Shown in pieces: positions 12,901 to 59,080 of a stretch of DNA of 64,000 nucleotides. The translations under genes and the position numbers were made by a program. Source of the stretch: Moorella thermoacetica (GTDB lineage: Bacteria > Bacillota > DSM-521 > Neomoorellales > Neomoorellaceae). The stretch is from contig NZ_CP012369.1 of the NCBI RefSeq assembly GCF_001267405.1, forward strand, positions 832,001 through 896,000. Direction: 5' to 3'. The first letter of the stretch is position 1, and every line of letters begins with the position of its first letter. Under the pieces are notes generated by a model, which had not been told where the DNA came from, did not search any database, and was given only the letters and a program-made list of their open reading frames with translations.

Positions 12901-12909
12901 TACTGTAAC

Positions 12910-13020
12910 GTCCTTCGGGGTTAGGTGTAATTCCTTACCGGCGGTAAAGCCCGCGAGCCGTTATGGCAGACCCGGTGAAATTCCGGGGCCGACAGTAAAA
13001 GTCTGGAAGGGAGAAGGAGG
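12910..13020 (+). ncRNA. FMN riboswitch (RFN element)
   Basis: The conserved RFN segments appear in order: CTTCGGGG, GGTGTAATTCCTTACCGGCG, AGCCCGCGAGCC, GGTGAAATTCCGGGGCCGAC and AGTCTGGAAGGGAGAAGGAG. FMN binding should favour the terminator that follows and switch off ribD-ribE-ribBA-ribH. Confidence 0.97.
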
Positions 13021-13041
13021 TTATAATCCTTTGCCTGCCTA

Positions 13042-24019: not shown

Positions 24020-24187
24020 ATGGAAGTAAAATGTGCACTGTGTGGCCGTAAAGAAGAAATAACCAAGGTACATAAGGATTACCAGAAGCTGGCGCGTGAT
24101 AAGGATGCCGTCTATACCTGTGAAATCTGCCGGGCCAGGCTCCGCTACCAGGCTGTGCAACAACAAAAACCACAACGCCCTTTATAG
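24020..24187 (+). CDS. Small YlaI-like (DUF2197) zinc-ribbon protein
   Basis: A 55-residue ORF starts at ATG 24020 behind GGGGAGTG. It begins MEVKCALCGRKEEITKVHKD and carries a second pair, YTCEICRARLRYQ. The two CxxC pairs predict a zinc ribbon, as in the YlaI/DUF2197 family of unknown function. The next promoter begins 8 bases after its stop. Confidence 0.8.
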   Translation: MEVKCALCGRKEEITKVHKDYQKLARDKDAVYTCEICRARLRYQAVQQQKPQRPL

Positions 24188-24194
24188 AAAACTA

Positions 24195-24223
24195 TTGACA
24201 GCGAAAAAATAGTTTAGTATAAT
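24195..24223 (+). promoter_or_regulatory. Consensus SigA promoter of the selenoprotein-thioredoxin operon
   Basis: Perfect TTGACA (24195-24200) and TATAAT (24218-24223) with a 17-base spacer. Strong constitutive expression is expected. Confidence 0.92.
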
Positions 24224-24248: not shown

Positions 24249-24530
24249 TTGGAAATTCGCATTTCGCCTAAAGCAATGGAATACATCAAAGAAAAAGCCG
24301 AAGCTATTACTATTAAATTGGAGATTTGCGGTAGTTGAGCCGGCCTCTCAGTTAGACCTGCCGTGTATGCAGGTGCACCAGCCGATATAAAGAATTTCAT
24401 CCTCAACCAGATAGATGGGTTAAAAGTCTACCTGCAGAAGGGGATTAAGGCTTCCCGGGGCGTGGATGTCGATCTGGTCGGTTTTGGTCCCTTCAAGCAA
24501 CTGGTAGTCGATGGCGTGCAAAATTACTAA
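24249..24530 (+). CDS. Putative selenoprotein with in-frame UGA (CGSU motif)
   Basis: The frame reads from TTG 24249 (behind GAGGGGGG) through a TGA at 24336-24338 to TAA at 24528, giving 93 residues with selenocysteine at position 30. The N-terminus MEIRISPKAMEYIKEK recalls the HesB/IscA-like start; then comes LEICGSU followed by AGLSVRPAVY. The sequence stays protein-like after the TGA, to a C-terminal VDLVGFGPFKQLVVDG. A hairpin placed like a bacterial SECIS follows the TGA. It resembles the small CC/Se-motif (seleno)protein group; function is unknown, but CxxU beside trxA suggests thiol/selenol redox. TTG 24243 is an alternative start. Confidence 0.82.
24356..24374 (+). promoter_or_regulatory. 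SECIS-like hairpin downstream of the UGA codon
   Basis: ACCTGC (24356-24361) pairs with GCAGGT (24369-24374), loop CGTGTAT. The loop starts 23 bases after the UGA and has G in its second position, which fits the bacterial SECIS rules for SelB binding. Confidence 0.72.
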
Positions 24531-24543
24531 GGAGGGAAATAAA

Positions 24544-24870
24544 GTGGCTAAGCCCATCAATGTTAACCAAAATGATTTCGAAGCTGAGGTCCTGTCAGCT
24601 CCACTGCCGGTAGTGGTTGACTTCTGGGCTGTATGGTGCGGCCCCTGCCGGATGATGGCCCCGGTTCTGGAGCAACTGGCCGCAGACTACGATGGCAATG
24701 TAAAATTCGCCAAGGTCAATGTTGATGAGAACCAGGAACTGGCGGCCCGTTACGGGATAATGAGTATTCCCACCCTGGTCATCTTTAAAGACGGCGCCGA
24801 GGCAGGCCGGATTGTCGGCTACATGCCCAAGGAAAAATTACAGGAACAGCTGGAAGCAGCCATCCACTGA
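24544..24870 (+). CDS. trxA: Thioredoxin
   Basis: A 108-residue thioredoxin that reduces protein disulfides. It has the active site FWAVWCGPCRMM and the cis-Pro motif SIPTLVIF. GTG 24544 is used, after AAGGAGGG; upstream codons in the frame lie inside the selenoprotein gene. It follows that gene by 13 bases, so the two are cotranscribed and may be redox partners. Confidence 0.96.
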   Translation: MAKPINVNQNDFEAEVLSAPLPVVVDFWAVWCGPCRMMAPVLEQLAADYDGNVKFAKVNVDENQELAARYGIMSIPTLVIFKDGAEAGRIVGYMPKEKLQEQLEAAIH

Positions 24871-24880
24871 CGATGGACAA

Positions 24881-24922
24881 ACAGGGAGGGAACCGGTCAC
24901 GGCCGGTTCCCTCCCTGTTTTA
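24881..24922 (+). terminator. Rho-independent terminator after trxA
   Basis: A 16-bp stem ACAGGGAGGGAACCGG/CCGGTTCCCTCCCTGT is followed by TTTTA. Confidence 0.9.
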
Positions 24923-24979: not shown

Positions 24980-25168
24980 ATGAGCAGGCATGCTTTTATC
25001 GATCCCGGCCTTTGCGATAGCCTGGCAGTGTGTCAGGCTCGCCTGGCCTGTCCCACCAACTCCTTTACCAGGGAAGAGGCAGGCGAACCCTGGTATATCA
25101 GCCCTACCTGCCTGGGATGCGGTCGCTGCCTGCTGGCCTGTGATCGCCAGGCCATCAAGTTAATCTAA
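24980..25168 (+). CDS. Small ferredoxin-like iron-sulfur protein
   Basis: A 62-residue protein begins MSRHAFIDP and has C-terminal CLGCGRCLLAC, one [4Fe-4S] half-motif. The N-terminal cysteines (CDSLAVCQARLAC) are spaced differently from a standard ferredoxin. It may carry one cubane plus an unusual site. ATG 24980 follows CAGGAGG. Its stop overlaps that of znuB on the other strand. The redox partner is unknown. Confidence 0.8.
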   Translation: MSRHAFIDPGLCDSLAVCQARLACPTNSFTREEAGEPWYISPTCLGCGRCLLACDRQAIKLI

Positions 25169-58904: not shown

Positions 58905-59080
58905 AAAAAATCCACCTCCTTCCACGCCTGCGAGGTTAGCTGCCGGGTGCGGACCAAGGATGGCCCTACCCCGCGCCCCTTTTTCCCCGTATAGGAAAAA
59001 CTGGCGCGGAGATTAACCCCACTTACCTGGTTCCCCCGCTTTCCACCGAGGAAATTCGGCGATCAGGTGGAAGAAGTGGA
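58903..59080 (-). ncRNA. c-di-AMP riboswitch (ydaO type), antisense to mtaD, no downstream gene
   Basis: On the minus strand the ydaO/yuaA segments occur in order: GATCGCCGAATTT, AGCGGGGGAACCA, GTGGGGTTAATC, GGGTAGGG, CCGCACCCGGCAGCTAACCT and CGCAGGCG. The closing helix CCACTTCTTCCAC/GTGGAAGGAGGTGG (one bulge) runs straight into ATTTTTTTT, so the aptamer stem doubles as an intrinsic terminator. The next sequence on this strand is antisense to mtaD; no minus-strand gene follows. The conserved GGGGTGAATC reads GGGGTTAATC here. Confidence 0.88.

Follow-up and report, generated by a model that had tools for sequence, protein, structure and literature searches.

The window analysed here is the whole 64,000-nucleotide stretch C1:832001-896000 of the host Moorella genome (G000, 2.53 Mb). 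On its forward strand it holds a small selenoprotein gene (sel) followed by a thioredoxin gene, with the following features:

24020..24187, + strand: upstream DUF2197 small zinc-ribbon-like gene, 55 aa (PF09963, 25.5 bits, cut-off 22.2)
24195..24223, + strand: SigA-type promoter TTGACA-17-TATAAT with the extra conserved box TTGACAGCGWAA, ending 25 bases before the start codon
24233..24242, + strand: Shine-Dalgarno-like sequence AGAGGGGGG, by sequence reading; relatives have AGAGGAGG at the equivalent site
24249..24530, + strand: selenoprotein gene, 93 aa, TTG start; NCBIfam NF041239 family, HesB/IscA-like fold predicted
24327..24329, + strand: codon for Cys27 of the CxxU motif, not conserved in all relatives
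24336..24338, + strand: in-frame UGA, selenocysteine 30 (Sec30) of the motif CGSU, aligned with the first HesB/IscA Cys ligand position
24356..24374, + strand: bacterial SECIS-like hairpin, stem ACCUGC/GCAGGU, loop CGUGUAU
24544..24870, + strand: trxA, thioredoxin (WCGPC), 108 aa, GTG start, stop TGA; syntenic in Moorellaceae
24880..24922, + strand: probable intrinsic terminator by sequence reading, 17-bp stem AACAGGGAGGGAACCGG/CCGGTTCCCTCCCTGTT followed by TTTTA

The frame of sel runs from TTG at 24249 to TAA at 24528-24530, and its translation from the window sequence has 93 residues: LEIRISPKAMEYIKEKAEAITIKLEICGSUAGLSVRPAVYAGAPADIKNFILNQIDGLKVYLQKGIKASRGVDVDLVGFGPFKQLVVDGVQNY. Cys27 and Sec30 are the sole thiol or selenol residues of the product. 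As the original prediction had it, the frame passes through TGA at 24336 in the motif CGSU and stops 13 bases before the GTG of trxA at 24544. The same prediction held that gene callers would truncate the gene, and this part needs correction: the table 11 ORF list contains no plus-strand ORF of at least 60 aa at the locus, and as table 11 has a stop at codon 30, the gene would escape a plain ORF caller altogether; NCBI's NF041239 model does cover it. The terminator is absent from the terminator scan, since the scan rule wants a longer T run, and several long antisense ORFs in the neighbourhood listing are uncertain gene calls.

Neither the selenoprotein nor its family, which is named after Moorella, is new. 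The product matches NF041239, 'CC/Se motif family (seleno)protein' (Moor_selen_rel), at 97.8 bits against a cut-off of 40, with residues 2-90 covering positions 2-91 of the 91-position profile, and a genome-wide profile search likewise places it above the cut-off. A 2026 review lists a 'CC/Se motif family selenoprotein (hypothetical protein predicted in Moorella thermoacetica)' with the motif CxxU (PMC13188914), and a 'hypothetical protein predicted in Moorella thermoacetica' is also given in PMC9312934. The Moorella protein shares the CxxU motif and the genus with the family and does not differ from it in kind; the present analysis adds the fold, SECIS covariation, and the promoter and neighbour context. 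The NF041239 library entry and the review rows state no function or fold. Literature searches on family function and on DUF302 with selenoproteins gave no relevant paper, and nothing on the fold, the thioredoxin link, the promoter set or the tandem-Sec sister group turned up in the searched papers, which cover the literature in part.

The protein is matched past the TGA in 27 of 61 related genomes, and 89 of 398 phylum genomes contain an NF041239-type family match, mostly with one TGA at the identical position. The frame continues through the TGA in all ten further Moorella genomes searched and in five from other genera of the family, and the TGA is kept in all 15 of these family-level relatives (16/16 Moorellaceae copies, including that of the window). 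Distant homologues have Cys at the TGA position, often as a CC pair, and many relatives have UC or CC pairs at the Sec site; the UGA lines up with Cys or Sec across homologues, as in a bacterial selenoprotein gene. Variable sites past the TGA are distributed over codon positions 1, 2 and 3 as 19/8/56, a codon comparison puts dN well below dS there, and the region is evidently under purifying selection. The genome has selA, selB, selD and tRNA-Sec, the selD gene itself carrying a TGA. The original prediction was to be abandoned if no homologue extended past the TGA or if the genome had no selenocysteine machinery; since both were found, neither ground holds. Cys27 is absent from two family members (RGGU, SGGU), and a Cys27–Sec30 pair therefore cannot be essential for every member; other homologue groups have a possible partner Cys at +1 or +3 of the Sec site.

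If the UGA were a real stop, as a standard gene caller would take it, the locus would encode a 29-residue leader peptide or be a pseudogene, with the downstream frame a relic. This is very improbable in view of the purifying selection past the UGA, the retention of the UGA across family-level distances, the Sec machinery and the covarying hairpin described below. Reading of the UGA as Trp, or through unspecific readthrough, is even less credible: no support for it was found, the next gene, trxA, terminates at TGA 24868-24870, so that UGA also acts as a normal stop in this operon, distant homologues have Cys, not Trp, at the site, and tRNA-Sec and SelB are encoded in the genome. Judged from sequence, 24249-24530 is a genuine selenoprotein gene read through its UGA, and the central claim of the original prediction is borne out by the NF041239 match, the kept TGA, the Sec machinery and the covarying hairpin.

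A 6-bp hairpin with G at the second loop position had been proposed at SECIS distance from the UGA; it is present, covaries and accompanies the TGA. The loop begins 23 nt past the UGA, and the hairpin lies inside the coding region, in SelB range downstream of the UGA and with a G in the loop, as in bacterial SECIS elements. At one exact register, its five core pairs form in 63 of the 89 Sec genes, compared with 24.2 ± 3.9 genes after synonymous recoding of the same proteins. Among protein-aligned genes, the five pairs and the loop G occur together in 52 of 63 single-Sec genes and in none of 20 non-Sec homologues, with a p of 1e-11 that is nominal, the sequences being related. Covariation was seen at 5 pairs, with 16 cells showing double changes (0/500 shuffles), in an alignment whose 100% pairing is biased because its rows were picked by register; synonymous recoding and the comparison of single-Sec with non-Sec genes are the less biased tests. 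In the compensatory changes, C-G replaces U-A at a pair of third codon positions, and at the fourth pair A-U takes the place of G-C, a change that links Ala-Ala (PAVxAG) with Thr-Val (PTVxVG). Single-sequence folding found the hairpin thermodynamically unremarkable (z 0.24), so the support for it comes from covariation and its absence in non-Sec homologues, not from folding energy. Rfam has no known RNA at the site and hence gives no SECIS confirmation.

The hairpin shares with SelB-binding bacterial SECIS hairpins the position of the loop, 23 nt after the UGA, the G within the first two loop bases and the intra-coding location. It differs from them in being unusually uniform, with a CGUG loop start at one exact register in 53/63 single-Sec genes, and in coupling Ala/Thr and Ala/Val codon choices. 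The hairpin is an example of an RNA signal that ties together amino-acid choices in a protein. At three loci (L129, L180, L191), RSEVQT replaces PAV and a different hairpin, GGUCUGA-GGU-UCAGACU, is present; at L180 the gene begins where a YczE-like membrane protein gene ends.

In a sister subfamily, two consecutive in-frame UGA codons (mostly RGUU/HGUU...APSG) stand in place of the CC of other members. These tandem-UGA loci (L092-L102) are in genomes G286, G098, G166, G240, G263, G133, G350, G370, G388 and G065; in the comparison of Sec with non-Sec genes, the 'UU' group of 11 was chosen by TGATGA in any frame, and some of its rows are not Sec-Sec proteins. The subfamily has one strong hairpin about 24 nt after the first UGA, for example CCCCAUCA-GGUC-UGGUGGGG, with A-U/G-C changes across members. 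In several genomes the tandem-UGA gene is flanked on one side by a ThiS/MoaD-like gene, which has an aldehyde ferredoxin oxidoreductase gene upstream, and on the other by a [FeFe]-hydrogenase-like gene. No report of adjacent Sec-Sec residues was found in the searched papers.

The predicted structure of the selenoprotein resembles that of A-type carriers. The AlphaFold model has a pLDDT of 91.9 and a pTM of 0.81; its best Foldseek matches in the PDB are SufA and IscA (E 1.3e-4). VIA-align gave Z 9.0 with an rmsd of 2.8-3.0 over 84-87 residues, the first unrelated chain being at 2.6, and the ten rows above Z 5 are, judged by their titles, IscA, SufA and other Fe-S-biosynthesis or HesB-like chains, including AQ_1857, hi1723 and the YneR model, which we take to be HesB-like. 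An hhalign comparison of the family profile with a HesB/IscA alignment (probability 97.3%, E 1.6e-11) sets Sec on the first Cys. A Pfam scan of the selenoprotein found no family at E up to 10, the PF01521 model matches neither this protein nor any other in the genome, and the family profile, searched against PDB sequences, returned chance matches only. The HesB/IscA fold itself is read from the predicted model. With good support from these predictions, the product appears to be a one-domain HesB/IscA-fold protein with Sec30 at the first cluster-ligand Cys and no C-terminal Cys-x-Cys. Classification as a TIGR01911 HesB-like selenoprotein was considered and rejected, there being no match to that model (cut-off 66.35 bits). 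TIGR01911 proteins (UxGP motif) have the predicted fold and Sec at the equivalent first-Cys position in common with the Moorella protein, whereas the latter lacks the GP after Sec and the C-terminal Cys.

A-type carriers (IscA/SufA, PF01521) have an internal Cys and a C-terminal Cys-x-Cys. In the Moorella protein only the first ligand position is occupied, by Sec30, with no Cys C-terminal of it; as the Cys-x-Cys is missing, the protein is not filed as an A-type carrier. Its operon also differs, containing thioredoxin and not isc/suf genes. It might nevertheless be a degenerate A-type carrier, in which iron, an Fe-S cluster or another soft metal is still bound by Sec30 and shared across a dimer, and the thioredoxin linkage reflects reductive cluster delivery only. 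The fold, the Sec at the first Cys ligand and the UC or CC pairs of many relatives are in keeping with such a role, which could be vacant in a genome having no PF01521 protein. We regard it as unlikely, given that the product offers just Cys27 and Sec30 and that no Fe-S assembly genes are adjacent in the neighbourhoods read.

Gene order and a shared promoter type link sel with thioredoxin. TTGACA (24195-24200) and TATAAT (24218-24223), separated by a 17-nt spacer, match the consensus at 12/12 positions in the promoter scan, so that the operon has the perfect SigA promoter ascribed to it. The DUF2197 gene, a syntenic neighbour, sits upstream of this promoter. In Moorellaceae, trxA directly follows sel at the loci where contigs reach far enough, and, judged from sequence, the two form a two-gene operon. 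Elsewhere the arrangement varies: families f39 and f93 have sel, an Xre-type regulator on the opposite strand and then trxA; f44 has sel, a secreted thioredoxin and a CcdA/DsbD-like protein in that order; and f50 has a thioredoxin-TrxB fusion and then sel. Many homologues have no thioredoxin nearby, and the link, to judge from these arrangements, is recurrent across lineages without being universal. The redox pair suggested from cotranscription gains weight from the linkage in several lineages and from the shared promoter type, and is not proven.

The box TTGACAGCGWAA overlaps the SigA -35 element and occurs in the host genome at C1:856195-856223 (window 24195-24223), 754813-754841 and 1202957-1202985; the box-bearing promoters (L209-L275) are TTGACAGCG promoters in short form. 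It is present with 0 mismatches in nearly all Moorellaceae genomes having sel, and a pattern search allowing up to 2 mismatches found it in 17 of 18 family genomes, as against one match for the reversed control. Of the seven near-perfect promoters with this spacing in the host genome, three have GCG, against an expectation of about 0.1. The genes downstream of the box are sel-trxA and those for a DUF302 protein, an FmdB-type zinc ribbon, a CcdA-like membrane protein and a Tat-exported 4Fe-4S protein, the DUF302 identity being from Pfam and the other names from reading of the translations. In genome G011, which has no sel match, trxA alone carries the box; in G019, a DUF302 gene lies directly downstream of sel.

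Probably, then, this known NF041239 selenoprotein is a HesB/IscA-fold, thioredoxin-recycled selenol carrier or relay in a small thiol- and Fe-S-related regulon. The role proposed for this small product differs from that of a classical Fe-S carrier. Sec30 would accept an oxidising, sulfur or metal substrate, forming a selenenylsulfide or a comparable adduct, Cys27 may help this step where it is present, and the co-transcribed thioredoxin would return Sec30 to the selenol. The selenoprotein would act within a small regulon of thiol- and Fe-S-related genes. The fold, a candidate thioredoxin partner and a promoter box naming co-regulated candidates make the function testable. A more inclusive proposal, in which a HesB/IscA fold has become a thioredoxin-coupled selenol carrier, accompanied by an undescribed Moorellaceae TTGACAGCGWAA regulon and by a sister subfamily with two adjacent Sec residues served by one SECIS, is put forward tentatively.

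More specifically, Sec30 could carry sulfur, persulfide or selenium in sulfane-sulfur trafficking, being recycled by thioredoxin and tied to the DUF302, CcdA-like and Fe-S proteins. The promoter box common to DUF302, CcdA-like and FmdB-type genes, the DUF302 gene immediately 3′ of sel in G019 and a CoA-disulfide reductase-like gene upstream in a related group are consistent with this, but in Moorella no rhodanese, TusA or sulfurtransferase gene is adjacent, and DUF302 has no known function. Such sulfur carriage is possible, if rather doubtful; it is a special case of the selenol carrier or relay preferred here and does not contradict it.

The host genome encodes a second NF041239 member, L103 (C1:1412467-1412709, minus strand), which has GTAGG at the motif and thus neither Sec nor Cys; its neighbours are genes for an FmdE-domain protein and an ABC substrate-binding protein, and a similar copy is present in G009. 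Within the window, a small Cys-rich ferredoxin-like ORF (CLGCGRCLLACDRQAI; 24980-25168, + strand) lies right past the sel-trxA terminator, with a similar one in a related genome (L164). The window also contains an FMN riboswitch at 12907-13022 (+ strand) and a c-di-AMP riboswitch of the ydaO/yuaA type at 58910-59071 (− strand).
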